Below, piece after piece: positions 94 to 58,181 of a DNA stretch of 64,000 nt (position 1 is the first letter of the stretch; each line of letters starts with the position of its first letter). A program made the position numbers and the translations under genes. The notes under the pieces were generated by a model, which saw only the letters and a list, made by a program, of their open reading frames with translations, ran no database searches and had not been told where the DNA came from. Location of the stretch: positions 8,680,001 to 8,744,000 of the forward strand of contig NC_135262.1 of the NCBI RefSeq assembly GCF_964204865.1, written 5' to 3'. The stretch is from Styela clava. Lineage: Eukaryota > Chordata > Ascidiacea > Stolidobranchia > Styelidae.

Positions 94-3000
94 ATATATC
101 TAGCTTTGTCTCAACGACCAGCTGCTGATTCAACAACTTTTCTGAATCTTGGATGTTGTTGTTTTTATCTTGGAATGTATAAAGAAGCACATGAAAACTG
201 TAAAAAAGGTCGATCTTTTTTATATTAATAAAACATATAATTTTATACTCTTATTTTCTATAAAAATTTACTCAGAATGAAGTCGAATAGACTCACTCCT
301 GGCAAATTGATAAAGCATACAATTTTCGAATCCAATGCTAAGCAAGAGGTTTGTGAATGATAAAAAGTAACCATCAATTTTCATTTTTTTTCAGCTGACA
401 AAAGTCCATTACAAAACAGACTGTTATTTCATCTTTCACATAAGGTAATATAGTTCTCTTTCTTCGTGTTTTTTGTAATTCTGATTCTTCCAAAACGAAG
501 AGTTCATTACTTTTCAGTGACTGTGTATTTTAGGCCTTGTTTGGTGCAAATGTGTGAAACACATTTAAGGGCTATTCCAAGTGACTCTATGGGACGATTC
601 CAGAAATTTTGCATGTCGTTGGATGTAATATATTTTTGCATTTCTGGCTACACGTTTTGTGTCATTGTCCAATCAATTGCTCCAATCCATGCCAATAATG
701 TGCATATTGTATGTGACACTACAGCCGTGACACTATGGGACATTTTTTCACTTTGGAACGGCCTCTATTATCTTTCATAATTCTGGTAATAATAGGTAAT
801 AGGTGAACCCATGTCCCGCAGCACTGCAAAAATAACTGTACCAGGAAATCAAACACTTCTGTTAGTCAATTATATCAAAATTTCTACATTCCAGGCCACT
901 TAGTGTAAATCATCAAAAACCTGGGTGAAATTTTACCTTTTTCGGTGAAATGAATGCAGTCCATTAAAATTCAGTTTTTTTTTATATAAAAAGTACAAAA
1001 CAATTACTTTCACTGCACTTTTAAAAAAAATTGATGGAATTCAACATTTGCTTGGAATGACCCATAAACATATAAAAAATGAAATTGACCTTTGATCACA
1101 TTTGAGATGCCAATGTTGAAATTTAATAAAATTTTTGATATATGAAGAAATTTTCAGTTTTTGATAACCAGTGGGATTATTCCTTAAGTATTCAATTATT
1201 TATTAAAAATTTGTTTCTGAAAAATATCTTTTACTTCCCGTTCTTAAACTTCTTAGAATCAGAATTTTTTGCATTCATAAATATTTTTATCACTGAAAAC
1301 TGTTATTTTTAGTTTAATGATGAAAAACAATTGATGTCTTTTCATAAACAATTGCAAGATCATGTAGAAGACCAACTGAGTCTTGCATCCATTCACTACA
1401 TGCGCTCGCACTACCAGGAAGCGATCGAAATTTACAAACGTCTTCTGTTAGAAAATAGGTTTGATTTTGAGCTCTGGATTTTTTTCGTAGTAATATCAAG
1501 TAATATCAGGAAATTCATTGTGAATGATAAAATATGCATTACATGTATGAATGAATCTTAATTTTGCATCGTATATTAACAGAATCTATGTATACTATCA
1601 AAATAATTATTAACAAACATTTCCCTATTTCTAGTTCAAATGAATCTATTGTCAGATTTTAGGTTATATATTGGTCTGAGTGAGTCGTAGATCATAGAAC
1701 AAGATAAAGTTGTATCCAGTTGAGATCAGTATATTTGTTTATGTGCTATTGTAGTTCAATTAGTAATGGTTTGGAATCTAGAATCTAAACGATAAATGAT
1801 AGATATAAAGTTTTCAATAGAAAAGTTTGGTAGTGCCAGTGCATGTGATGGAAGTAGAGTATAAGAATTATGTTATAAAATATAAAATTTTGCAATATAT
1901 TTGATTTCAGTAGATTTTTACAGCGTTATATGAATCTTAATTAACATTTGGTAGCTTTATTCAGTAGGCATATGGCCATGCCCTACATACACGTTGGTAG
2001 ATGGTGCAGATTTTATAAACCAGTCTAGCTAACTGAAAAAGGAAAGTAAAAACAGGGCAACAAAAGTATGAGTCAGTGAGGAAAATGAGTCCCCAGAAAA
2101 ATCAAAAAGTAGCTAAATCTTTTTGGCTTATTATATTCAGGGCTCTCTAGTACCCAGCAGGAAAATTTTGACTCTAGCTCTGAACTAGAACCGAGAAAAA
2201 AACTTGATAACAGATATATAAAACTTGAAAATTTTGATAACAGATATTGCTTAATTTGCTTGCTTTCTCAATTTTTTGGTTGGAAAGTTTAACTTTGAAC
2301 ATCGCTATAAATATTTGAAACTCTTCAAAGAATTCAAAATGTTTTCTGGGAGTTTGAAATGACGACTCCAATATTAATAGAAAAATTTAGAACTTCAGAT
2401 TCCACCTCCACATTCAGATTGTAATGAAAAAATAGACTGATTGAAAGAAAGTACGAGTTTTAACATTCTTGAAAATTACAAGAAAAAAGTTTTTATTGCA
2501 GAATTTTGATTGTAATCAGCTTTAGAATAATGATTTAAAAATTAGCGTAAGATAATTTTGAATCTTAGTTTTAGTTTCTATTTGATCTTTAGTTTGGAGA
2601 TGAGTTTGAGTTATTGACGCATCATTCTAAATTTGAAGATTGTTTATTGGATCAATTATGCCTTGCCAGTTTACATTATATGAGAGGACATTATCACGAG
2701 GCAGTTAGAATATATAAGGAATCTATTGCAGAAGATAGCAAGAGGTGAGAATAGGACACATAATAATATACAAATAGTCTTTTTTTTTAAATATGGCACT
2801 ATATTTCTATTATATTTTGATTATTATATTTTCATGATGACGGTTAAATTTTAAAGTTGGTTTCATATTATTTATTGTATGAGACATTGTTGGTACCAAA
2901 TCACACAAAAATTTCTTTAAAAGAATATTGGTACTGCCAGTAAATCTTAAATCGAAATGACTCTTTCACTTATGATAAGATTGTTTCCCTGGCCTGGTGT

Positions 3001-6000
3001 TCCGGTAGATTTAAGTCAAGATGACAATTTTTGTTCAAGTTTTTTCTTCTTATAGTGTAGTGTAGTAATTTTATATTCTTCTAATCCAGGGAATTTCTGG
3101 CATTGAATGTGTATGTTGCTCTGTGTTATTACAAACTGGACTACTATGACGTGTCACAGGTAATTTTTTTTTTTTCTTGAATTTCCTGTGTAATTTTTGG
3201 GGGATAAAATTTAGGGTCTCATAATATCTAATAAATTTTCATTCTTTTAATTAAAAAAATAGCAATTTTTTTTAAATCATTTGTGATTTTTATCAAATTT
3301 TATGAAGCGGCTCAAGATAACATTTCATTACAGTGATTCCCAAATCCTGGTCCACGGACCGATTTCGGCCCATGTAACAATTTGATATGGCCCACGAACC
3401 ATTTTTATGTCATTATCACAGTTGAGGCGCCTTAATATTATTAACAATTCAATTATACATGTATCTTAATAATACGTAAAGGTAATTTGATTACCGTACA
3501 TACGGAATGCGCCCTTGTGGGCTGTCCTGCGAATAGCCTATTCTTTCCGCTTCTAATTTTGGCCCCTGGTAAATAAACTTTGGGAATCACTGCTTTATAA
3601 TATCCAAAATTGGAAACAAAATATGCAAGAAAAAAATAATTTATGTCAGTTCACCATAAACCAATTTCTCTTTATATTTACAATTACAATTATTTATAAC
3701 TACCATTAATTTAACTTTTTTCAGGAAGTATTAGCTGTATATCTACAACATTTTCCAGACAGTGCTATTGCATTGAACTTGAAAGCTTGTAATCATTTTC
3801 GCTTATATAATGGTAAAGCAGCTGAGACCGAACTGAAAAATTTGCAAGAAATGGCATCATCTAGTTTTACTTTTGCTAGTGAACTGATCAAACATAACTT
3901 GGTGAGTTGTTACTCTTTCATAAGAATATACATTATTTATATGAGATAGAATAGGCATTTTATATTTAGCGTGGTAAAAGAAAAGCCATTAGGATAAATT
4001 TATCATAAGGCATGCCACATACTCTCATGTCTGGTATGTGAATAATTAGTCAGTCAATACCTAATCATATGGTTTTATTATGATATATACCGTATACTAT
4101 GCAGGTTGTATTCCGTGGTGGAGAAGGAGCACTTCAAACATTACCTCCACTTATTGATGTAATGACAGAAGCGAGGTTGAATCTTGTTATTTATTATTTA
4201 AAACAAGGTAAGTTATATAAAAATAAAATATATTTTCTGACCGGTAATTATTTGAAATATCACTATTATTTGACACAATTTCAGATGATATTCTTGAAGC
4301 TTTCAATCTCATCAAAGAAATTGATCCATCTACTCCGCAAGAATATATATTGAAAGGAGTCGTCAATGCTGCTTTGGGGCAGGAACAAGGATCTGTATGT
4401 CCGTTTATTCATTTTGTATTAGTGTATGAATAGCATAAATTCAAGGCTTCAAGGTGTTATTAAACTGTTAAGTGATCTTGGATCTTCATCGTTAAAGACT
4501 GGAGTTATTTAGGATCTCAGAACTGATTGCATCATATATTACATTTTTAGAAGTTATAGATTTCGAATCCAATATGCGGATAATTATGTGTGAGAGGATT
4601 TCCGGACTCCTCGCCTTTGTAGAATGTCCATCCATCTGAAACAAATACCTGGCAAACTAATCCCATACCTGACATTAACTGGTTGCCGGATAGGAGAGCG
4701 TCCGTGGCTTGACTTATGATTAAGCCTTCTTATCACCTTTCTTCTCCTCGGGATAAATATGAAAATCGATCCCATCCTAGATAAGTTAGATAGATAGTTT
4801 ATTTCGAAGTCCATGCTTCGAAAATTTAGAACACACCAGATTAAAAAATTAGGAAAGTCGCCAAATCATACAATACAAGTAGAAAAACTTCAACCTTGTG
4901 AGCATTGTGTTAATTTATGCCTGTGTTATACATGCCATAGCACACAAACAATGAAGTGATACAGCTATCGGCTTCTATTAGTCAAGTAGCCTTCTTATTA
5001 ACTCTTGGCTATTTTGTCACTCAGTATGAGGTTATTCTAGTGGAATTGGGAATGGCTGGATTTTCAAACCACAGCGAAATACATTTGACAACTTACTTAT
5101 TTATTGCACTGTCTCAGTATGAATGGAAATTCAATGTTCTATATGATTTAGCAGCCTATTAAGTATTAATCAGTAATTTTTATTTATTTTCTAGCGAGAA
5201 CATTTAAAAATTGCTCAGCAATATTTTCAACTTGTAGGAGGTTCAGCAAGTGAATGCGGTAAGTATTTCTTCATCATGGCATGTTTCTTGGAAACTATAT
5301 GGGAGTTCAACTTCCAGCTGAAGCAAAATTTGACTCCAGTAATATTTTGAACTAATTATAATCCAGACTTCAGCATTTTACCAAGAAAAGCGTTATCGCT
5401 GAATTATTCGCATTTCTAGAGACTTTGTTTGGGGATATCTTACCGTAATTATAATAATGAATAAAATTTTTGTCTGGGCAGACGACATGATTCAATTTTA
5501 TTCTATTTCTGTTTCAGACACTATACCAGGAAGACAATGTATGGCTTCTTGTTTCTTCTTGTTGAAGCAGTTTGACGATGTTCTTATCTATCTTAACTCT
5601 GTCAAGGTAGATTTTTGAGATTTATTCTGAAATTTACTTAATTCACTGTACCATCCAGAATCTAGTTTATAAAAGGGGAAAAAACAAGATAACACATTCA
5701 GTTTAGAGTTCTGTTTGGAGAAACTACTACTTTGTAAGATGAGGAAAATACTCATAATTTCTGGGATTACCAATTTTAAAACAAGTATCTCAGCAATTCT
5801 GTTGTAATCAAGTTATTTAACTTAGTCAACTTGAACTTAGACAGTCAACTGAAAAAGCAACATTGTTCAACAATAAGTCTTTTCAATATGTTTTTAATGA
5901 CGATCCTTGTAATCCTACATTTTGAGTATTTACGATTTTTAAATGATTCTCATTGAGTGTAGTTAAAATTATTGTAATTTGAAATTTTCAGAGCTACTTC

Positions 6001-8259
6001 TATAGTGACGATTGCTTCAATTTTAATTACGCCCAAGCAAAAGCTGCTTCAGGCAATTACAAAGAAGCAGAAGAGGTATGTTCATTGTATCTAATTTTAA
6101 GGCCTATTTTGTACCATAAAATCTTTCTGTGCAATTTGCTTAAGTTGCATTTTGTATTACATGCTATAAATCTTGTGTATAATTATATTTGATTGTTTAT
6201 TTGTACATGTCTAATAATTTTACTACAGCCTGTTATACCTTGTACTGATTTTACTTTTGATTGCACACTTTATTATGCTTATCAGTTTTAATGAATGTTT
6301 TGATTGTTACTTTTCAGATCTTTCTTCTGATTCAAAATGAAAGAATACGAAATGATTACGTTTACCTCAGCTGGTTAGCCAGATGCTGTAAGTTTGAATT
6401 TATTTTGTAGAACTGTATAACAATGGATTTATACCTTACCATTATGAGATATTTGATTATCATTTTGGGAGTATCTTTGTTTACTATTTTTTTTTCATAA
6501 TAACTGGAACCTGGCAAAATTTCCATTTTCTTTCATGCTATTTGATGAATGCCTTCGAGAAATACAAAAACTAATTTGTTTGTGTTAGTTCTTCTAGCAA
6601 GGACGCTATATCTTAAATATAGATGACTGACTATTTTAACTTGAATGCGTTTTGCTGCACACTAACGGAAATGTATTTTCATAATTTTTCATTTGACCAG
6701 GTCAGGCAGAATGTGCGGCATAATGCCTGTCTGAAGGAGTCAACAAAACAATACTGAAATTAGGGTAATGTGCAGCAAAACTCGTCAATCGTGTATCTGC
6801 GGTGTGTCTATTGACGTAACTACAAATTTATGTCCTAAATACTAATCTAATTTCTACTTTTTCTTATACCAAATTCAGATATCATGAACAAGAAAGCAAG
6901 ACTTGCTTGGGAGTTATATTTGAAGATGGATACTTCTGGAGAATCTTTTAGCATTCTGCAACTCATTGCTAATGATTGTTACAAGGTATAGTAAATATAT
7001 TTTAAAAAAGTATAAAAAATATCATAATGTTGGCCCAAGACAATGACAAAGATTTGTGACTTTTATGATTACGATCAAAACAAAGGAACCAAGATTTTCC
7101 AAGCAAATTAGACGAATTGTTCATATTTCAAAATACGGCCTCTCGCTCGTTTGCGAGTTCGTGTCCAGGATACAAACCTGCCCATGCAGGGTAATTAGAA
7201 GTGTGATAGCAAGTTTATTCCTACCCCTTGGCATGATGTGCCAACTGCCAAGCCCAACGAAAATTACATAAAATCTGAGTCTAACCCAAAAATTATGCTA
7301 CTATGTTGAAATAATTTGCTTAAAGTTTCAAGTAATTTAGCATTATTTGATTGATAACTTCTCTGCTACTATTGGCACAATGTTCACTTACTTGCAAGTT
7401 GCAACCTTACTCTTGGGCAATTTTTGTCACTAATGAATGAGTCAGGTTAGGACTTTCATCTCGAGGGAGAGTAAAATTGATAAGACAGCGTCCAGTTACC
7501 AGTCACAAAAATATGGTTGTTAACCAGTTATTGGTTTCATGTGCATCGAATTTCATTGAGCAAAACCGATAGATATGTTGTTAGGGACAACTGTTATTCA
7601 TCTTTCATACAGATGGGACAATTCTATTATGCTGCAAAAGCTTTTGACGTCTTGGAGAGATTGGATCCGAACCCAGAGTATTGGGAAGGAAAACGTGGAG
7701 CTTGTGTTGGAATTTTTCAAATGATATTGGCTGGACATGAACCAAGGTTACTTTAATACTTTCGCTATTATTTAATTATTTCTAGATATTTAGTAGTTTC
7801 CTATTTCCCTTATATTACCGATGTGTCACAAAATTATTGAATGTCATGCCTGAAACCCTATATATGTTGCATTCTTGGTTCAAATAGCGCAAGTCTCCTT
7901 GTTGCAAATTATCTTTTATTCTTTGTAATGGAATCGAGTAATTTCATAATTCATGGTTTAAGTTTAATAGAGTTATTGCTCTCTCAAAACTTTTTGTGTT
8001 ATGTAATTCAACAATCCAAATAAACCATATATGTCTGGTAAACTATTCTCAATATACACGTGGGACTGACTGACAACATCAAGTTATCTTGTGGCAACTA
8101 ATTCTTTTATCCTCCAAAAGTATACAATATCTTTTTAACTTCAGAGAAACACTTCGTGAAATCCTCATGCTTCTTCGTAACACAACAAACCCTCAAGTGG
8201 AGTACATTGTGAGAACGATTAAAAAGTGGGGGAAAGAACAACGACTCAACATGCAATAA
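94..8259 (+). CDS. TTC26: Intraflagellar transport protein 56 (TTC26/IFT56), 3' 14 exons
   Basis: IFT56 is a tetratricopeptide-repeat subunit of the IFT-B complex that moves cargo along cilia. Exons read as 94-208, 395-444, 1313-1458 (or alternative 2593-2744), 3090-3159, 3725-3901, 4105-4207, 4285-4394, 5195-5258, 5518-5606, 5992-6075, 6318-6387, 6879-6985, 7613-7746 and 8145-8259. All junctions are GT..AG and the phases join without a break to the stop at 8257-8259. Recognisable vertebrate IFT56 blocks include [55 protein letters not shown] and [15 protein letters not shown]. The N-terminal exons lie upstream of the window; the first exon shown aligns roughly 100 residues into the human protein, and its left edge (94) is the least certain boundary. 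The donor at 209 (GTCGAT) is weak. An AATAAA at 8298 is a likely polyadenylation signal. Identification is firm; the splice choice at exon 3 is the open point. Confidence 0.95.
1313..1458 (+). other. TTC26: TTC26 exon 3a (canonical TPR exon)
   Basis: This 146-nt exon enters in phase 0 and leaves with 2 extra bases. It encodes the conserved block [11 protein letters not shown]..., followed by the TPR helix [20 protein letters not shown]. It is nearly identical to vertebrate TTC26 and is presumably the ancestral version. Acceptor AG is at 1311-1312 and donor GT at 1459-1460. Confidence 0.9.
2593..2744 (+). other. TTC26: TTC26 exon 3b (divergent tandem copy of exon 3a)
   Basis: This 152-nt exon has the same entry and exit phases as exon 3a and encodes a related block: [11 protein letters not shown]..., then [20 protein letters not shown] and a terminal ED-S-K-R. 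By hand about 25 of 49 positions match exon 3a. It has an AG acceptor at 2591-2592, a GTGAGA donor at 2745 and no stop. It carries a two-residue insertion near its end. Both lengths leave remainder 2 on division by 3, so including both copies or neither breaks the reading frame. Confidence 0.85.
3331..3592. mobile_element. hAT-type MITE in a TTC26 intron
   Basis: A 262-bp element with perfect 14-bp terminal inverted repeats (cagtgattcccaaa). Subterminal sequence is rich in GGCCC, as in hAT elements. The flanking 8-mers tttcatta and ctttataa match at only 5 of 8 positions, so this is an older insertion or the target duplication has decayed. No coding capacity. Confidence 0.7.
4605..4815 (-). 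repeat. Possible LINE 3' tail fragment (minus orientation)
   Basis: Read on the minus strand the segment begins near an AAATAAAC-type run followed by short tandem units (about 4789-4806, CTAT/CTAA), the typical 3' end of CR1/L2-like retroposons. The rest has only a 76-codon open frame with no recognisable domain. It lies in a TTC26 intron. Class is inferred from the tail alone. Confidence 0.35.
7099..7265 (-). repeat. Degenerate tRNA-type SINE-like copy
   Basis: The segment shares a run with 9240-9330: aat(c/t)agaggtg.., then ttcctaccccttgg against ttcctaacccttcg. Its reverse complement has a decayed B-box-like stretch (caggtttgtatcctgg). It lies in a TTC26 intron. SINE identity rests on the better copy at 9.3 kb. 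Confidence 0.4.
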
Positions 8260-9234
8260 ATTCGTCTGAGTGTATATATCGGATCATCGGCATTTCCAAT
8301 AAAAAATTGTAGTAGTAGTCTCCCTTCCGCAGGATGTACTATTTTTTAATTGACTGAGCACAGTTCAAAAATATTAATAGCGGTGCTGTTAATTTTGTGT
8401 CATTGTATGTAGTATATTTGTTTAGTTCTTTTTTCTTGTGTATTATATTTTTCTACTCAATAAAATATAAAGCTATTTGTTTTATTATATTAGCATATGG
8501 AGAATGTTGGAAGTAATATTAGGAGTTGGTAACGTTCTAAGTTTGTGAACATCAATAAAAGAAATCTTCCTCTGGAATATACTGTGAAAACGAGGAGTCC
8601 TATCACGCAAAACATGCAAATCTATATGATTTAACTATCTCCCAATACTGGAACTGTTTGACTGACACTTCTCCAGCCTATTAGATAAACTGTTTGTTGT
8701 TGAGCGACAGCACGACCTACTTTTTAGTGGAGCTTCGGATAGGCTTCACATATTTATCACGGGGAGAGGAAAACCGAGGAGACGGCTTATTACATAGCGA
8801 AATGTCAAACGAGCTGCGCTTAGGAAATTGTCAATGTTTGGGTCAACATACGTCTGCGAATCTGTGATTTCTACCCTAAACACGTGAAATCAAAGCATTG
8901 ATCTTTCCTGGCTGACACCCATGTGTAAGAACTGCTCCGATTAGCCACAACGACATACAAGCCAAATTTAAAGAGGATTGTTTAATCCAAGGAATGCCAG
9001 AAGTCCCACTAAGTACCGTAGCATGCATAAAAATAAATGGCTTGTAAATTTTTGTCATAATCATGTTGGTTAGTGACATTCACAAAAATTAGCATTAAAA
9101 CAGAGCTGAATACAGTTTATATCTGTTGTTCTTGCGTGTTCTTGTTTATAATGTTGCTCTTCTCGTGAATAAAGTACGAAATGCGGCTCTTGGTCTCTGA
9201 CCGTTTGGCCACCCCTGCTGTCTCACCCAACTAT
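8260..9234. other. Intergenic region after TTC26, transposon end near 9217
   Basis: No gene seen. After the TTC26 polyadenylation signals (AATAAA at 8298 and another near 8459) the sequence is unremarkable until about 9180-9217. There the reverse complement reads caggggtggccaaacggtc, a typical hAT terminus. No matching left end was found, so the element is truncated or its other end has decayed. Confidence 0.5.
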
Positions 9235-9372: not shown

Positions 9373-9614
9373 ATGAGCAAAGCCCATCCGCTGGAATTAA
9401 AGAAGTTTATGGATGAAAGATTGGATTTAAAGTTAAATGGTGGACGATCTGTTACGGGTACATTGCGAGGTTTTGATCCTTTTATGAATCTAGTCGTGGA
9501 TGATGGAACAGAACGTAGAAAAGATGGAACCATTGCACCTGTTGGAATGGCTGAATGGTGGTCGTTCGCGGAAATTCGATAATAATATTGGGAGCATTGG
9601 AACGGATACAATGA
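9373..9614 (+). pseudogene. SNRPG: Small nuclear ribonucleoprotein G (Sm-G) copy, frameshifted, intronless
   Basis: SmG is one of seven Sm proteins that ring the U-rich site of spliceosomal snRNAs. From ATG 9373 the frame gives [20 protein letters not shown], then the Sm1 motif with [20 protein letters not shown], ending at GM. An extra 8 bases (9550-9557, gctgaatg, resembling the flanking ggaatgg) then shift the frame. The original frame stops at 9580-9582. The conserved Sm2 motif ([10 protein letters not shown], then LGALERIQ) continues in the shifted frame to a TGA at 9612-9614. The copy has no introns. No clear poly(A) tail or target duplication was found, so it may be a retrocopy or a recently broken gene. 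A 69-residue truncated product lacking Sm2 should not assemble, and a functional SNRPG is expected elsewhere. Confidence 0.8.
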
Positions 9615-40506: not shown

Positions 40507-43500
40507 TCACCAATCACAAAATTCTTCCCATTTGGCAGCAATAGCGCCTCCACCTATTGCAGCTACCACTCCTCCTCCGAATAGACAACCAATTGCAATT
40601 TTGGCAACCACGAATCCAAAGATACCAAATGCTGCCAAACCTCCAGTTGCCACGCCCAGGACGACTGCGATGCCAATAAGAGCACCAACTTTCCACCAGT
40701 TCTGAAAAATAATGTAATTAATGTGTTTACCTGAATCTGAGATTTCGCAGCTTTATGTAAACATCAAAATACATCTTCCCATTGTGTAAATTCACCGCTA
40801 AGTACGTTATCGCAAATTGTCTAATTTTGTTTCTTTTCAGTTTCGAAATTTGTCCAAAATTATTCGTTAAATGTTGGGGACATTTTTGTTGACGCTGTTG
40901 CTGTAGTGCAGAAGAAGAGGCTCAAATTCATAATTTGCGATATGATCTTGGTTTCAATATTCTCCGTGAAGTAATAAAATAATTTACACACCGTCTTTTT
41001 TACACCACTTTCTTCCAATTTCTTTCGCATTTTCTCATTTTCTTTCAAAGCTTTGTCGTACTTCTTCTTCAATGCCTCATGTTCTCTAAGCAGGTTCTGA
41101 AAAAATTGAAGATTGTATATATTTTGTTATGAATACCACGGTACAAAAAATATGTCGATCGTAAATCGTATTATGGATTGAATTTACAGTTGCATAATTA
41201 TGCGAAATCCGAGCCAAGCCGTAATGCAGGGGTCGGCATCGTACGTCCCGTGGGCCAGCTCTCGCGACGCTTCGCTGAATTATAGGGACAAAACGGCCGT
41301 TTGGCGATGAATTGCTTTTATAATACATGCTTGAGGAGTTGATTTTATTCTTCACATAACAGAATTATTGCGAGACATGTGTAGATTATATTATAATCTA
41401 GCAATAAAGTGAAAAGCTACTCGTTTAACAAACCTACAATTTAATTATAATTAGACAAATAGCAACACGCAGAAAAGTTGATGCTAAGTGCCGAGAGTTC
41501 AATGGCGCAGAAAATATTCGAATTGAGCTTCTTGAGATGAAATGCAATGAAGAAATAAAATTCATATTTCATTCGATAGATGTATCACTGCTTGATTTTA
41601 TTTATAAAAAGTATCTTCCTGAAGAAAATCTCAAACCATTTACATCGATGTTTGGGAATACATACGAGTGCGAACATCTTGGCTTCCTCTAGCGTGCCGC
41701 CTGATGTCGAGAAGCTATCAAGCGTGATGCAACAACAAGTATCACAGTCTTCTCGCGCTGTTCAAAATCTAAAATTTCAACTTCTGATCGGTGTGAAATA
41801 ATTGTGATTAATCGGCCATCCGTTCGGTTTTTAACTTTCTTAAAATAAGTGCGACCCGCCAAGACTTGCAACCCTCAATTTTGGCCCGCGAGGTACAGTG
41901 GATGCCGACCCCTGAGGCGTAATGTATGTTTTTGTTTTTCTTTGCTGTGTTAAATTTTTTGCCGTTTAGCCCTTGACTTCCTCAGCGATATCCGCTTCTC
42001 TTCTTTTGTGTGGCTCTGATGAAGGTTTGAAGTTGGTTATATGGCCAACCAAAAAAAGCATGTTGCACACCTCTGTGCTGAACATACTTATTTTTACTGG
42101 AAGCACATCGTGGCAGCTGAATGAATGCTGAGTGTTATGAGAATTAAGTTCAGTTATTCCTGTTGCAGTGTGCTACACTTTGTTTATATTCCGTCATTAT
42201 TACATTATCGTTCTTTGTGTTGTGATCACTGATTATCGTCAAGCGACAACGGACTGCATTTGCCTTACTGCATTAGTTACGTGCCGTTACGAGTATTAGA
42301 CGGTAGTCCGATTAAGTTTGGCTATACTTAGTGACTCAATGTAATTATGTTGCATGTTCTTGTGTTTAGGTTAAGATGCGTTTTTAGTTTCTTAAAGCCA
42401 TAATTTTGGTTATAATAAATAAACTGTCATAACAATTTAAGAAACTAAAATCTTAAATATGGATGCATCGATGAAACCAGTGAGACTTGACCTAAATCTG
42501 AATTCTCCAAGCGCGGCAAAGGAATGGAAGCACTGGCGAAAAACATTTGAGAACTACATTGAAGAATTAGAGATGAGTGTACAAGAGGGCCAGTCTGTGA
42601 ATAAACTCAAGAGGCTAATCAACTCAGTATCTCACAATGTTTATGAATATATTGAAGATGTGGACGCTTATAGTAAAGCTATGGAAGTGCTACATAACTT
42701 ATATGTCAAGACGCCGAATGAAATATTTGCACGACATCTGCTAGTTACGGCAAAGCAACAAACTGGTCAATCCATCGACGAATTTTTACAAACTCTGCGT
42801 AATCTAAGTAAAGATTGTAATTTTAAAGATGTTTCTGCCGCGCAGTACCGCGACGAACTTATACGTGATTCTTTTATCAATGGTATTTTGTCAAATAACA
42901 TCCGACAACGTCTTTTGGAAAACAAGGACTTGACTCTTGAATTAGCGTTTTCACAAGCTTCATCACTTGATCTGGCGCAACGTAATTCGTCAGCATATGA
43001 AGCATCTCGAATCGACGAATTGCAACCTTCCGCATTGGCCACTTCCGAAACCTCTTTCGACAATGAAGGTATAGTAACTGGCCGTATAACAGGGCGAAAA
43101 TGTATATTCTGTGGATATAATTACCACAATCGTCAAAATTGTCCCGCACGCAATGCCAATTGCTACAAATGCGATAAAAAAGGCCACTTTGCCAAACTTT
43201 GCCGATCAAAGATGAATAAATCTGAAGACTCTTCATCTATAACGGCGTCAGTAAATCCATCAGTCCACGATTTGCAATCAGCACCACGGTGTTTACTGCC
43301 GGCAACACTTCCAGTTGTCATAGCTGGTCGCAATACAACTGCGTTGATAGATACCGGAAGCTCTCTCTCTTTTATAAACGAAAAAACTGCGAGAATGCTA
43401 CGTTTGAAAATTTTGCCTTCACGGGAAAATGTAGTGATGGCTGTCCAGCATCTGCAAGGAACGACTATTGGATCCTGTTTAACTGATATGATAATTGGTA

Positions 43501-46500
43501 GTCGTTCATATACCAAAGTGCCTCTTAAAGTATTTCGAGGTCTTTGTTGTGATTTATTGCTCGGTCAGGACTTTCAAAGACAACATGAAAGAGTCATTTT
43601 CCCTTTTAACGGCTCTCGTCCTGAACTTCTAGTTCAATATGAATCAAAAGTATGTGGTTTAGCTGCTGCAAACTACACCCCGGCTTCGTTATTTTCTAAT
43701 CTCATGAAAAATTGTCATCCGATAGCTGTCAAATCTCGCCGTTTTGGCGCGTTAGACAAAGAATTCATCGCTAAAGAAGTTTCGAGAATGTACAACGAAG
43801 GAATTATCAGGCCAAGTTCTTCGCCGTGGAGAGCACAGCCTTTAGTTGTGAAGGATCCATTGACCTCAAAACGACGATTGTGCATAGACTATTCACAAAC
43901 GATAAACATTTATACAGAGCTAGACGCCTATCCATTGCCGCGAATTGATGATATGGTTAACGAACTTGCTGGATATTCCTGGTTTTCCACCTACGATCTG
44001 AAATCCGCGTATCATCAGATTCCAATATGCCAGCAAGATAAAATTTTCACTGCGTTTGAAGGCGATGGTAAACTCTGGGAATTCAATCGTATTCCATTTG
44101 GAGTGACCAATGGAGTACCAGCTTTTCAGCGGCTAATGGATGAAATTGTGGAAAAAGGCAATCTGAAAGATACATTTCCATACCTCGACAATGTAACTAT
44201 AGCTGGACATACAAAAGAGGAGCATGACTATAATGTGAAGAAATTTCTCGATACTGTTAAGAAAAACAATTTAACATTAAATGATGCAAAAACAGTATCA
44301 AGTGTACGAAAAATTAACATTTTGGGATATACAGTGGGTAATAATTCAGTAGCTCCAGATCCCGAACGCCTAGCTCCATTGAGAGAACTCCTACCTCCAA
44401 CAAATAGTCGCGCTCTGCAAAGAATAATTGAACTTTTTGCGTATTATTCGAAATGGATTGTAAACTTTTCAGACAAAATTCGACGACTCCGCCAAGCGAA
44501 AACATTTCCTTTAGATTGCGCTACAGTACAAGACTTCGAATCACTAAAAAGAGAAATCGGAAATGCCACTTTGAGCTCAATTGATGAGCATGTTCCATTT
44601 GTTGTAGAATGCGACGCATCGGAAATTGCAATTTCAGCCACACTGAATCAAGGAGGGCGACCAGTGGCATTTTGGTCGCGTGTTCTACAGAAGAGCGAGA
44701 GGTTTTATCCTGCTGTAGAAAAGGAGGCAACGGCAATCATTGAAGCTGTGCGAAAGTGGGCCCATTTTCTGGCAAGACGTCCATTCACTATCGTGACCGA
44801 CCAGCGATCGGTTTCTTTCATGCTAGATAACCGTCGTCGATCCAAAATAAAGAATAATAAAATTCAGTCCTGGAGGCTGGAACTAGCCTCTTTCAGTTAC
44901 GACGTTAGATATCGACCTGGAAAACAAAATGCCGCACCTGATGCTTTAACACGTTCTACATGCGCATCAGTTTTTCCCACGTCATTGCAAGAAATACACG
45001 AAGGTTTATGTCACCCGGGCGTCACAAGACTTCTACATTTCGTCAAATCGAAAAATTTGCCTTTCTCGACTGATGACGTTAAAAGAACTTGTAAATTATG
45101 CCGCGTATGTGCGGAACTTAAACCGAAATTTTATTCCCCACCGTATGGCACATTAATCAAGGCCACACGGCCATTTGAAAGACTGAGTATGGACTTCAAG
45201 GGACCTTTGCCATCACGGACAAAGAACGTATACATGCTAACCATTGTCGATGAATATTCTAGATTTCCATTTGTATTTCCATGCACCAATCTTTCTTCCG
45301 CTTCAGTAATAAGCTGCCTTGAAAAATTATTTGCTCTGTGCGGACTACCTGGTTATATACACTCTGATAGAGGAAAATCTTTTATGTCTGCGGAACTAAG
45401 GGATTTTCTGCTGAAACGTGGTGTAGCCACCAGTCAATCCTCGCCTTATCACCCAATTGGAAACTCCCAAGTTGAACGATTCAATGGAATCATATGGAAA
45501 GCCGTGCGTTTATGCTTGCGTACATATAATCTGCCTATCACACATTGGGAATATGTGTTACCGAAAGCTCTTCAATCGCTCCGATCTTTGCTTTGCACAG
45601 CAGTCAATGCAACTCCACATGAACTATTTTTCAACTTCCAACACCGCTCTCCCAGTGGTCATTCATTGCCTACCTGGTTGTGCGAATCAAAACATGCTTT
45701 TCTGCGGAAATTCGTTCGTTCGCACAAAAATGACGATTTGGTTGAACAAGTGGAACTAAAAAATGTGAATCCCGCATATGCTCGAGTTCGTTTTTCTGAT
45801 GGGCGGGAGAGTACGGTATCGTTAAGAGACTTGTCCCCTTGTCCAGTCTCCCAACGATCTTCAAGTCACGATAGAGAGTCTCAAGACTTTTCTCCTGAAG
45901 ATAGTGAAACAAGTACTAATGCGTCACCACTAAATGATGGATGCAACGTTGACCGAAATGAAGAGTTCAAAATTGAAATTCCAATTAGCTCTGACAATGC
46001 TAATAATGAAAGGATTGCCACACGTCGTTCAACTCGAACTAACATTGGTGTTCCACCAGAACGCTATGGTTTTGAAATATAGACGGGGAGAATGTTATGA
46101 GAATTAAGTTCAGTTATTCCTGTTGCAGTGTGCTACACTTTGTTTATATTCCGTCATTATTACATTATCGTTCTTTGTGTTGTGATCACTGATTATCGTC
46201 AAGCGACAACGGACTGCATTTGCCTTACTGCATTAGTTACGTGCCGTTACGAGTATTAGACGGTAGTCCGATTAAGTTTGGCTATACTTAGTGACTCAAT
46301 GTAATTATGTTGCATGTTCTTGTGTTTAGGTTAAGATGCGTTTTTAGTTTCTTAAAGCCATAATTTTGGTTATAATAAATAAACTGTCATAACACTGAGT
46401 ATGTATCACTGATGGCCCAGTCCCAAAATTTACTACAAGACATCGGTATCAATACTTCTGGAACTGAAGTTAGATCAAGAATTAGTTGATTTGACCTTAC

Positions 46501-51966: not shown

Positions 51967-54497
51967 GCAAGAGTTACTAAGTGTCTGCGATAAGAGGTGT
52001 ACTACACGAGTGGTTCCATTATCTTTACATTCCATTCCGTTCCATTATCTTCAGTCTCTGACCGATATTCTCGTTTGTTACTTTGTGTTATCGCAGCACA
52101 CTGAAAACGAGGAGTAAAAACTTTCACTGGGTTTTGCGATAAAAATGAACTCGCGTTGGTCTTTAAGTTGCCGCACTGTCCAGACTCTAGACTAGACTGT
52201 TTTCCGTTCGTGAAGATTTATAATTGCAACTCGTTTTCTAATAGTTTCTGGTCGCCATGCAGAGAAAGGAAGATTGCATATCGTGGAATGAATGGAGCGC
52301 GTTGGTCGTCTAGTTCCTAGGCTGGCTTAGAATTTACCCATTAGTGGACATTGGTAAATGCAACTCACTTTCTGATATTCTGCTTGCTTTCTCACTTCGG
52401 CTGTAAAGCTGCTATGAATATTTTTGCATTTTTATTTGGGGGCTCTATGCCTTACTAAATATCTTACAAAATACGGGCAGGTAGGTGATTGTCCCTTGAA
52501 TGCCTAATTTGATTGGTTCAAAACTTTTCAAACTGGTTAACGAAATCTTTCACATCCATATAATGTGAATTTAAGTAGTCTTCTTCAGGGGTGGTACTGA
52601 CGCTAAAACATTGGGAAAATTAATGAAAAGATCTTTCTACATAGGAAATCCCCCCCAAAAAACTTGGCGATGACTCAAATGTTTTAGATTAAATTTATTT
52701 TAAGCTTACGTGGATGTAGAGGAGAACCAAGCGCTCTCTCTAAACGTGGATTGCAAATAATTTTTGATGTATTTAAAAAAGGATGGCGAATTGGACCTGT
52801 TGAAGTATGCGCACCAAGATGGCGCACAACCTGAATTCAGCTTGTGTATCAGGTTCGGGTTCAGGTTATGCGACATCTTGGTGCGCATACTCCAGGAGTA
52901 CCGGTGAATTTAATAAAGAACACTTGACATCAATCTGTTGCAATGGGTATTCAGTGCAATGTTTTTGAGGACACAACAGACGAAGCAGTCTTTTAATACG
53001 AGCGATATTTCTATATTCTTTTGCACAGTACTTGAAATAATTAGCCAGTAATCGATACCGTATACCAGGAGCTGGCAACAAACATCAAGACAGAATTTCT
53101 CATGACTCGTTGTCTCCTTTTTCTTGGTAACATGAATTTACTAGACCGTGAAAACAATATTCTAGCACGAGTACAGCTGTAAACAGTCGCACGTTTCACG
53201 GTATCGCTCACCGATGTACTGCAGTAATAACAGGCTGTAGTTCGACGTTAAAAGTAATGAGTTATGATTTGTCAGGCTATGGATAGGGAAAAAAAATTCT
53301 GTCGTTGTTTGTTGTTTCCATATTGTTGAGGCAGTTATGTAAGTACTTTCTGAAGTCTTGATACTTTTTTTCCATTGTAAGTGAGCTGAGTTGGTCAATC
53401 ATTGGACACACTTAAAATATGTTGTAAATTTATTGGGATGCTGTTGACATACACACGGACAGTTTAATTTCCCGTGTTTCGAATAGCTTGTATATAGCCA
53501 TATCGATTTTCACTAAGCATTAATGAATTCAAGTTCTTTTTTTTTTAAAGCTGACGAAATTATAGGCTCAATGTAATTGTTGATTTTCATTAAAATTTAT
53601 GTAATATCGGAGAGGGTTCGTAAACATTCATTTGAAATTTAGCTACATGTATAGCGATTTCATTCATTATCAATACGCCTTACTATGCGTAAAATCATTA
53701 ACTACAAAGCTGTGCCTTTGCTCTATTTGGGTTGGTAATCAGCCGGCCGATACTCGGCATTGGTTTGACGTATGACTCATCTTTTTAAACGTCTCTCCTC
53801 TGTGATAAAAACAACAAATTCTATCGATTTATTTCGCAGTTACCAGCGCCGTAAGATAATCCACGCGGTAATTTATATTTTATAGCACTAAAATAACTAC
53901 AACTGCAACTATTCCATTACGTCTTTTGTTATGATACTGCTAAATTGCCAACATTATTTGTGGTGGTTTTGGGATATTTAACCTTCTATTGTATAATCTT
54001 GCGTAATTGGGTATGTTAATATTTGTCGATAATTTGATACGATTAGACATAAAATTCATAAATGCCGAACCAGGAGGGTCCACCACGACAGTTGCAGCCA
54101 TCACGACCTTGTCGAGTGGCTGGGAATACGCCTATACTACGCCCTCTCGTTTCACTAATTAGCGAAATCTCTATCGAAATATGAAACTCCTAATATGTCA
54201 GGTCATAAAGTTTAAAAAGGAGGGAAGGGTAAAACAATATTAATAGAATAGATGATATGTTTAATTTGAAATGGCAATGTTGGATTTTCTAATCCAAACT
54301 AAATTATCCTAAACAACTTAATAACACAGAAAGGCGCCCAAGCTCAGAAGCTTGAGTTTTCTCATAGAAGTGAAGATGTTAAAGCCCGAATCATATATAT
54401 GACGCGTCGAGATGCATATGCATAGATTCTGTTTCAATTATTTTTGTCGTTTTTTATTAATTATTCTTAAACTTTCGACAGATTAATTATAAAAGTC
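51967..54497. other. Intergenic region before HYKK
   Basis: No gene seen. The only clear structure is the foldback at 52804-52891. The promoter of HYKK should lie at the right end. Confidence 0.5.
52804..52891. repeat. Short foldback (32-bp inverted arms, 24-bp loop)
   Basis: Left arm 52804-52835 (agtatgcgcaccaagatggc...) pairs with right arm 52860-52891 at about 30 of 32 positions. The loop is 52836-52859. No target duplication was recognised. Probably a tiny foldback MITE. Confidence 0.7.
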
Positions 54498-56703
54498 ATG
54501 GTGAGTAGAATACCAAAGCGGGAAGTATGGAATTTGCTTCAAAAATATTATAATATAATACCCAGTTCTGTAAGCAAAATGGCAGGTTATTCAAACATCA
54601 ATTACAAGGTAACAGCAAATGACTGTATCAGTCCAATAACCGATTGCAAAACTGCATCAGAAAATTTCCTGCTAAAATTCGCTGATGTTTCACACGTATT
54701 TTACTTAGGTAAGAATTCATCATTTTTCCTTACCTCTTCTATTAATAATTGCTAGAATAGTAATTTAATATCTATACCACGTTTCTATGACTTTGCCGGC
54801 CACGTGAAGTCGTTAGTATTCAAACATTTTAGATTGTCGTTCACGCACAATCGTGAAGCGTTCCTCTATTTTTTAAACAAAAAAAAATAAAAATAAAAAA
54901 TAAATATTTGCAGATAACATCGACATGCAACATGAAATGTTGAAACACCTGCATTTACACGGAATTAACGCATCTTTACCGGTAGAATCCACACATGGCG
55001 AAACAATGATAGATTATTCTTTCGGTAAGTTGTCAGTTTTGAAAAGGTTTACTGAGGTAAATGAATGTCAGTTATAACTGGTGGTTACATGTTTAGGTGG
55101 GAAACAGTACTCCGTACAATTGTTGTCTTTCGTTAATGGCGTGTCGATGAATGAAGCTGATACGAGTCAAGAAGAAGTGATCGACATTGCTTACGATATG
55201 GGGCAGTTATGCGGAAGATTTCATCATACCATGAAGGTAATACATGATATAAATGATGATGATATAAATGGGATGATATAAATCAGTGCATCTAACCCAG
55301 AGTATGAATCAATCCCGCAAAGCCTTACCTTTTTTTGTTATGTCTCGGATTTGCTTGATATTCTATTGTTTTGCAGACATTTAACTACGATTTAGAAACA
55401 GCATCTGGGATCCATTCGCCATTCCATACGGAAAATGCTGCCATGTTCGAGGAAAAGCTCGCATACGTCGGGGATAGATCCTTGAGAAATCAACTCATAA
55501 ACTACATGAATCTTTTTAAAGAAAATTTTTTGCCACGATTATCGGAATTAAGAAAAGGTAACAATTTATCTCTGATCAATACGATATATGTTGACTTGAC
55601 TTATACTCTGCATACGTATTTAAATTTAAAATTTCAGCTTTCACCTTCTACAAATTCTAGCAGAAACACGTACTGTACTCTTGACCAGAGAGAATTCTTT
55701 ATTTAAGTCATTTCGAGCGACCTAACTATAGCTTATTAGGTTATTTTGTTCTCGCCCGCTTTCTCATCACAATTAGGGTAAAATTAAATTTTCCTTAAAT
55801 GTTTCAATTAATGTCACACTCGCAAGTGGCGCCGAGTCACCGACTATCTGAGTCTTGAGTGAAGACCCAGCGAATTTCCAAAGCCATTGTCTTAAGTAAA
55901 GCTTTTTTAATTCAGAAGTCTTTGGGCCAGTCACGCCACTATTGCCCCACAATAAACCAACGCTACTTGGCATACTATTCAGTAATAAACCAAAATCGTT
56001 TTCGGGTTCAGTCAAGTGGTTGTTTCCTCCAGGATTTTCTTTCATTGGGAATCTTTGCAAAAATTAGTTCGAGTCTCTTCGACAATTTATCCATACCAAC
56101 TTTCTTTATGTTCATATTATGTCTATATATGTACTGAGTACACAGAGTTGTAATGAGTGTTTCGATAAAAGTTTAAATTATTTTTTTGCTATTTCAGGTT
56201 TTATTCACGGAGATATGAGTGACACCAACATCATTTTGAAAGATAATTCTCAAAAAGGTGGACAGAGAAGAAAGAGATGGGAAATTGGCGGTCTTATAGA
56301 TCTGGAAGAATGTGCTTACACGTACTTAGTTGGTGAAGTAGGAATATGTGCTGCTTATTCTATGCTCAAAGCGGCATCCGTTGGAGCTGACCCGGTAGAA
56401 GCATCTCTACATATGATACAAGGGTACCAGTTGATGCACGATTTGTCTGCACGAGAAAAAGAAGTTTTGTTCTACGCTGTTTTAAGTAGGCTTGCCGTGT
56501 CGTATGTATCTGCGTGCTACGAGTGTTTTCTAACACCAGAAAATTCGACATATCTTTTTACGCAAGCAAAAAATGTACCGGTGGTTTTGGAAGCGCTGGA
56601 AGAGTGTGGAAAAAATGAAATCGAGAAAATTTGGTTCGGTAGAAGGTACAAATGGCTACGACAACATAATAGTTGGCGAAATAAAGCCCCTCCAAAAGAG
56701 TAG
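54498..56703 (+). CDS. HYKK: Hydroxylysine kinase
   Basis: HYKK (AGPHD1) phosphorylates 5-hydroxy-L-lysine using GTP in lysine/collagen catabolism. Exons 54498-54708, 54914-55024, 55097-55236, 55377-55557 and 56198-56703 join in phase to give 382 residues, close to the roughly 373 of human HYKK. The fold is that of aminoglycoside phosphotransferases. Visible hallmarks are an N-lobe with AGYSNINYKV and FLLKFADVSH (the nucleotide-binding lysine), the HNMQHEML-like helix after it (here NIDMQHEMLKHL), the catalytic loop FIHGDMSDTNIIL (HGDxxxxN) and the metal-binding Asp in GGLIDLEECAYTYLVGEV. It lacks a signal peptide, so it is cytosolic or mitochondrial. A truncated tandem copy follows on the same strand 770 bp downstream. 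Identification is firm. Confidence 0.93.
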
Positions 56704-57471
56704 AGGAACAATCGCTGGTCGCATTTGATTCCAAATCTAAGCATCAGCGTTGCTGTTTGTATAAGTAATTCCTATTTGCGTTGAGTTGCACTGTGGAAAT
56801 TGCAACAAGTAACATTTCAGTCCCATGTTGGGACTCTTCTATATATATATTACATTTTGTACAAAGGGCCGTTTTATTGAATTTATTTCAAACCAATATT
56901 ATTGCTTCCATCTTTTACGTTTTCAAACGACAAATTTCCTATGTCACCTTATTTTTTGATCGTGAATATTTTTAAATTGTTTCTGTAAATATTTCCGAAT
57001 ACCTATGCTGCATTTGGAAGCTGTTTCTGAAACCATTATGCATGTCTTGTTATTTTCATTTCAACGCTGTACGGTTTTGTTTTATGCGACTACTGTTAAG
57101 ACTTGATCCTTTTAATACTATTTTATCAATTTTCTATATAATATACGAAGCGCGTGAACCAGGTTTAATATTGTGCTATATATTTAAGTTATTAGGGAAT
57201 TGTACACGGGTTCGTAAAGGATAAAATAAGTATTTGTATTGAGAAAATATTGATTACCACGAGACTCGAACAAAGTCAACAACGTGTTTTGAAAATTTAC
57301 ATTTGTTGGAGGAAACCTAGTATAACGAAGACGGCGACTGCTTGGTCCTTCGGAAGTTGCTGTCTGTTTTGTAGGCGACAGTAGTAAATTCGTATGCATG
57401 GATATAATTTAAAATTTTACCTCAATTCTTTTTTATTTATTTTCAGACTTTATATTTATAAAACAAATGTA
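56704..57471. other. Spacer between HYKK and its truncated copy
   Basis: HYKK 3' UTR and the upstream region of the duplicate. No further gene seen. Confidence 0.5.
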
Positions 57472-58181
57472 ATGGTGAGCAATATACCGAATGATGAAAC
57501 CTTGAATTTGCTTCAACAATATTATAATATTATACCGAAATCTGTGAACAAATTGGCAGGTTATACAAATATCAACTACAAAGTTAAAATAAATAACCTG
57601 CTCAGCACGGAAGCAGATTGTAAATCCGCCACAAAATGTTTTTTGCTGAAATTTAGCGATGTATCACACGAGTTTTACTATGGTAAGAATTGACTTATTT
57701 TATGATGGTGTCCTGCTAGCAGAAAGTAAATTCTGTCTGATTCTAATACAGATAACTTTCATGATATTGGTCCTAGGTTTCTATTGGATTTATGGTTTTG
57801 TGTTATTGTTTAATATACTGATAAAGCATCATTTTACTAACTGTATCTAGGAAACATTGACATGCAACATGAAATGTTGAAGCATATGCATTTACATGGA
57901 ATAAACGCATCTATTCCGGTAGAATCAACTGATGGCAAAACATTTGTAGATTATGCATTCGGTGGGTTTTCAACTTATTACATATAATCCATAACCGTGA
58001 GGTAATAATTTGAATTAAATAGATATATAGGTACGTCTTTGCCATTATCATGTGCAATATGAATAGCGTAATTCAGAATTTCACCTTTAGCTGTTGCGTC
58101 AGTTGATGCCATTTGACCTTTTCAGGTGGAAAACAGTACTCTGTACAATTGTTATCTTTCGTTGATGGCGTGTCGATTAAT
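57472..58181 (+). pseudogene. Truncated tandem duplicate of HYKK (exons 1-3)
   Basis: Three exons match HYKK: 57472-57682 (211 nt), 57851-57961 (111 nt) and 58126 to about 58181. The first two have exactly the same lengths and phases as in the intact gene. The protein begins MVSNIPNDETLNLLQQYYN and is still open and similar (AGYTNINYKV, NIDMQHEMLKHMHLHGINAS, GGKQYSVQLLSFVDGVSI). Homology stops inside exon 3 at a TTAA (58177-58180), next to the left end of the foldback element at 58183. The catalytic-loop exons are absent downstream of the element, at least to the end of the window. No internal stop precedes the break, so a short product is possible, but it would lack the kinase C-lobe. Confidence 0.85.

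Follow-up and report, generated by a model that had tools for sequence, protein, structure and literature searches.

An old tandem duplication of a TPR-coding exon in the ascidian IFT56/TTC26 gene: a frame-locked pair whose copies are probably used singly

The stretch of DNA analysed here, a window of 64,000 nucleotides from Styela clava, opens within the IFT56/TTC26 gene, which lies on the + strand and contains two consecutive exons that encode the same TPR segment. Judged from the sequence, an IFT56 exon was probably duplicated in tandem long ago, both copies being kept as coding exons and used singly. The original prediction of two such neighbours, with about half of their residues identical, is borne out at its coordinates. 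Exon 3a, the conserved copy, which matches Chlamydomonas IFT56 (PDB 8bd7_E), occupies 1313-1458 (+, 146 nt); exon 3b, the diverged copy with 51% identity to 3a, occupies 2593-2744 (+, 152 nt); and the intron separating them (1459-2592) measures 1134 nt. The "3" in these names is a label only, the exon that ends at 444 being the fourth found.

The gene model, rebuilt from the window and 10 kb of upstream sequence, comprises 17 exons, both duplicates counted, with AG acceptors and GT donors throughout; this sequence yielded no exon carrying the initiator Met. The two most upstream exons, both coding, precede the window (C17:8678386-8678520 and C17:8679169-8679261). They are followed by a third at 94-208 (+), placed by its GT-AG borders and frame, and by the exon that precedes the duplicated pair, at 395-444 (+), which the gene model ends in phase 0; both fall within the full-length match to 8bd7_E. 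Downstream of the pair, a common exon at 3090-3159 (+) finishes a split Arg codon (AG/G) behind either 3a or 3b. The 10 remaining constitutive exons span 3725-8260 (+), each with a single genomic match and with the frame unbroken to the TAA stop codon, held by the last of them (3725-3901, 4105-4207, 4285-4394, 5195-5258, 5518-5606, 5992-6075, 6318-6387, 6879-6985, 7613-7746 and 8145-8260). The predicted identity of the gene holds along the whole protein: residues 20-550 of the 555-residue isoform with 3b align with 8bd7_E (4.7e-206), and a 202-aa piece containing 3a matches it at 1.3e-83. Directly downstream of IFT56, the window carries an intronless LSM-domain gene (9373-9582, +; Pfam LSM 4.2e-14), which we take to resemble snRNP G.

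Both exons are bounded by GT-AG sites (3a, ttttag/TTT ... ATAG/gtttga; 3b, ctttag/TTT ... AGAG/gtgaga), and they align without gaps at 24 identical residues out of 48, with two additional residues at the end of 3b. In six-frame searches of the 376.6-Mb genome, 3a retrieved itself and 3b only at E <= 0.001 (3b at 1.2e-9), and 3b retrieved itself, 3a (7.7e-10) and, in third place, a match at chance level (E 0.68). Thus the likeness of the two exons is not due to chance, no third copy exists at E <= 0.001 in the six-frame search of this genome, and the adjacent, significantly homologous 3a and 3b qualify as tandem duplicated exons. A blastn comparison of 207-3160 with the window and two upstream 10-kb loci returned the self match only (E <= 0.01). 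Since neither the exons nor the introns retain a match at the DNA level, the duplication is old. Scans of viral and prokaryote contigs yielded no relatives of the locus, as expected, and Rfam (gathering threshold) and tRNA scans gave no matches.

The two exons are locked in frame. Both lengths are 2 mod 3, and both exons enter in phase 0, leave with two bases and are free of stops, in agreement with the phases and lengths initially claimed; together with the GT-AG borders, this is the pattern of a mutually exclusive exon pair. With either exon the model reads through to one TAA, giving 553 aa with 3a and 555 aa with 3b, whereas inclusion of both exons leads to a stop at codon 188, inside 3b, and omission of both to a stop at codon 151. 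As these early stops are followed by many exon junctions, joint and double-skipped mRNAs would be expected to undergo nonsense-mediated decay. The statement that exactly one of the two exons must be chosen is therefore right for the full-length protein; for splicing itself it would be a prediction, as transcripts with both exons or neither could arise and then be destroyed. Among human mutually exclusive exon clusters, 377 (60%) have lengths not divisible by three and are in this way frame-locked, and 83 of these 377 had reads joining both exons (PMC5740500). In the mouse, a Ttc26 nonsense allele lowered the mRNA 5.7-fold, which its authors ascribed to decay (PMC4207615).

Splice sites were scored with models built from the gene's own constitutive sites. 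The 3b donor scores 8.41, with 4 of 14 constitutive donors higher, and is the best GT in 445-3089. The 3a donor scores 4.08 and falls outside the 12 best GTs of that interval, several intronic GTs scoring above it; the idea that it is unusually weak was dropped, given that 5 of 14 constitutive donors are lower. Both acceptors are on the weak side (3a, 2.75, 2 of 15 constitutive acceptors lower; 3b, 3.48, 3 of 15 lower), 11 of the 15 constitutive acceptors exceeding 5. Weak acceptors are frequent among alternative exons. An alternative 3b acceptor at 2575 was rejected, as it would place an in-frame TAG directly before 3b. The intron between the duplicates also holds an acceptor-like site, at about 2141, whose score of 12.22 is above those of both duplicates' acceptors and for which no exon was evident by eye.

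No mechanism enforcing exclusion was found in intron length, U2/U12 type or RNA pairing. Steric hindrance needs a distance between donor and branch point of under about 50 nt (PMC5740500), so that with an intron of 1134 nt steric exclusion is unlikely. By eye, neither donor is U12-like and both are of the major type, which does not fit U2/U12 incompatibility. A search for pairing of the docker/selector kind gave a single 17/19 pair, between an arm within exon 3a (1398-1416) and an arm in the next intron (1828-1846) that includes TGCATG. The stretch 1780-1910, which surrounds the intronic arm, matches itself alone in the genome. For the whole of exon 3a against the downstream intron (-66.3), equal or stronger pairing occurred in 5 of 300 shuffled introns (uncorrected); other exon-intron pairs of the gene reach similar energies, and exon 3b, in a comparison where the shuffles apply to 3a only, surpasses 3a in its pairing with two introns (-69.8 and -68.8). 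There are two TGCATG sites, at 610 and 1840, the second of them in the 1828-1846 arm, with about 0.5 expected from base composition. Exclusion through an RNA structure formed by 1398-1416 and 1828-1846 might thus be regarded as a weak lead.

The divergence between the exons is of the coding type. The exons differ at 25, 12 and 30 of the 48 first, second and third codon positions, respectively; the same codon is used at 8 of the 24 identical residues, and the synonymous distance is saturated. In neutral simulations starting from 3a, with mutation and without selection (5000 runs in each of two versions), 307 runs stayed open when taken to equal third-position divergence and 363 when taken to equal total divergence, and none kept 24 residues (means 6.5 and 11.5). 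Exon 3b does not resemble a neutral relic, and the absence of a single such run in either set of 5000 indicates that 3a and 3b were under protein-level constraint over much of their separate history. Moreover, 3b keeps 20 of the 32 residues common to 3a and Chlamydomonas and 4 of the 16 others (p 0.030; when aligned without gaps, 19 of 30 and 5 of 18, p 0.036), a preference that appears modest with 48 residues. Depending on the alignment, 3a is identical to Chlamydomonas IFT56 at 30 or 32 of 48 residues, and 3b at 20 of 48; we take 3a to be almost the vertebrate IFT56 sequence. Little is gained from codon usage: none of the 232 overlapping stop-free windows from the gene's introns reaches the score of 3b, but 648 of 7783 stop-free windows in 10001-64000 (both strands, coding stretches included) match its score.

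In the TPR register, six of the seven signature positions (4, 7, 8, 11, 20 and 24) are unchanged between 3a and 3b, the exception being a change from L to S at position 27. Four of the five concave helix-A positions are kept, position 2 changing from E to L, and the helix B changes include E22 to R and R26 to E. Counted by region, the 17 residues ahead of the repeat carry 11 changes, the 14 of helix A carry 4, the 14 of helix B carry 7 and the 3 final residues carry 2. The proposal that the TPR core was retained while surface positions changed is thus correct for the core, apart from position 27, but less apt for the remainder, as the densest change precedes the repeat. Scores with 3b and 3a, respectively, were 31.8 and 30.6 bits for TPR_2, 18.6 and 23.8 for TPR_19, and 14.6 and 18.4 for TPR_9; beyond the exon, the scored pieces contained an assembly slip of two residues. 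A consensus TPR protein was matched at 26.5 bits with 3b and 36.4 with 3a, and IFT56 itself at 158 and 189.6 bits.

These changes bear on whether 3b is still in use. It could be a former alternative exon that is being lost, long selected and now rarely or never spliced in. Such a history would agree with the half of its residues that differ, among them TPR position 27 and 12 of the 32 residues (ungapped, 11 of 30) common to 3a and Chlamydomonas, and with the lower scores of several TPR models; indeed, divergence is blind to present-day selection, and the constraint on 3b may belong to the past only. We consider ongoing loss rather unlikely, given that 3b is stop-free, retains its AG, its frame and its split codon and has the best-scoring GT donor of 445-3089, whereas neutral drift tends to open stops here, as the small share of runs remaining open at equal total divergence indicates. 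Less likely again is that 3b serves mainly as a poison exon, its inclusion after 3a creating a premature stop that lowers IFT56 through nonsense-mediated decay, with the coding likeness a leftover of its origin. The stop inside 3b upon 3a-3b joining and the good 3b donor, which would favour inclusion, are in line with this role; however, a poison exon requires no amino-acid conservation, while 3b conserves residues over saturated synonymous sites, and its use in place of 3a gives an open model of 555 aa.

It is very improbable that the pair reflects an assembly artefact, an adjoining haplotype or part of a second IFT56 gene. A protein identity of 51% is far beyond allelic, and the neighbouring introns share no blastn similarity. 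Furthermore, a query running from 3b to the protein end, and hence leaving out the exons that precede 3a, returned 13 six-frame matches across the 376.6-Mb assembly. Each exon accounted for one of them, and all lie within C17:8681313-8688256, on a single contig of 20.3 Mb.

If both copies are indeed retained as coding exons and used singly, splicing would lead from the exon that ends at 444 through either 3a or 3b to the exon that starts at 3090, with regulated splice-site choice setting which copy is used where. Joint or double-skipped mRNAs would be removed by nonsense-mediated decay, so that the two proteins alone would accumulate; exclusion would then consist of regulated site choice combined with decay of wrong products. 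As the 3b donor scores above the 3a donor, 3b may need to be held back where 3a is used, although the indication is weak.

At the protein level, the swapped stretch, one N-terminal TPR and the helix preceding it, leaves the C-terminal exons common to both forms. Mouse Ttc26 lacking the last 125 aa loses IFT46 binding (PMC4207615). Given that this C-terminal region is common to both forms, both proteins would be expected to join IFT-B trains. In the genome, the C-terminal domain of the partner IFT46 has one match, within a single open frame of 362 aa (C9:13334717-13335349), so that the genome search showed no matching duplicate in that domain; the single open frame contrasts with the at least 17 exons of IFT56 in the same genome. 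IFT56 is a member of IFT-B1 in Chlamydomonas trains; dynein-arm cargo is expected to dock at the peripheral surface of IFT-B1, the inner arms doing so through IFT56 (PMC10191852). Chlamydomonas dyf13 mutants (oda1 background) have inner-arm dyneins a, f and g halved, and IFT movement seems normal (PMC3936282). What would set the two forms apart is an N-terminal face with a possible role in contacting cargo, and the swap could alter the choice of motility or signalling cargo. A tentative, rather doubtful extension is that one IFT56 gene gives two kinds of IFT-B train, 3a providing the conserved motility-cargo subunit and 3b serving other cargo or another type of cilium (sperm, multiciliated stigmatal cells or sensory cilia). 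If it is true, cargo choice would be controlled by splicing inside the train itself, through an exon pair of long standing in the lineage. To our knowledge, it is an open question how the IFT trains of one animal select distinct cargo for its various cilia, and a natural swap of one TPR that leaves the IFT46-binding end alone would be a ready-made experiment on the cargo-choosing face of IFT56.

Other features were observed in the window and genome. The window contains an intact LTR retroelement frame of 1213 aa (42441-46082, +), with aspartyl protease, reverse transcriptase, RNase H and integrase over the Pfam cut-offs and a zinc knuckle below it. Upstream of IFT56, positions 1-1698 of the neighbouring locus (L003) carry, by eye, an integrase-like frame of another retroelement. 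Two frames at 54471-54755 and 57388-57693 (+) are similar by eye (V-MVS-IP...NLLQ-YYNIIP-SV-K-AGY-NINYKV), which suggests that a gene was duplicated in tandem. A later frame (56068-56703) shows a likeness to APH-type phosphotransferases that scores below the Pfam cut-off. On the IFT46-bearing contig, one GH6 exon over the family cut-off was seen (C9:16179895-16180164), directly preceded by a frame that is membrane-spanning-like by eye and has no Pfam match. Cellulose synthase carrying a GH6 domain is, within the animals, characteristic of tunicates, and the exon and its upstream frame presumably belong to a tunicate cellulose-synthase-like gene. Since the contig also carries IFT46, contamination is unlikely as the source of the GH6 exon. 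A search of the assembly for COX1 gave no match.

The available text of the IFT56 papers PMC3936282 and PMC4207615 does not contain the word "isoform", and no duplicated exon is reported in what is available of these two or of PMC10191852. Among the titles and abstract openings of the literature matches listed, there was no such exon pair in IFT56 or another IFT gene, and existing gene annotation may already show 3a and 3b. The 3b isoform aligns with Chlamydomonas IFT56/DYF13 over nearly its full length. The pair itself resembles the human tandem duplicated exon substitutions (PMC9741552, 236 events) and homologous mutually exclusive exons (PMC5740500, 629 clusters): the exons are adjacent, homologous, internal and of the same phase, their lengths are frame-locked, structural residues are largely kept, and the resulting proteins differ in one homologous stretch. 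The main texts of both studies lack the words "TTC26" and "cilia", and that of PMC9741552 also lacks "IFT". Unlike these human sets, the IFT56 pair is known from genomic sequence alone. In the duplicated exons Ab/3 of U2AF1, the less used copy is the one whose recognition sequences are better, its repression depending on branch points that were mapped and on a stem-loop bound by protein (PMC5224494); nothing comparable is established for the IFT56 pair. To conclude, a duplicated exon pair is a well-known kind of event, and IFT56 is an unexpected gene in which to meet one.
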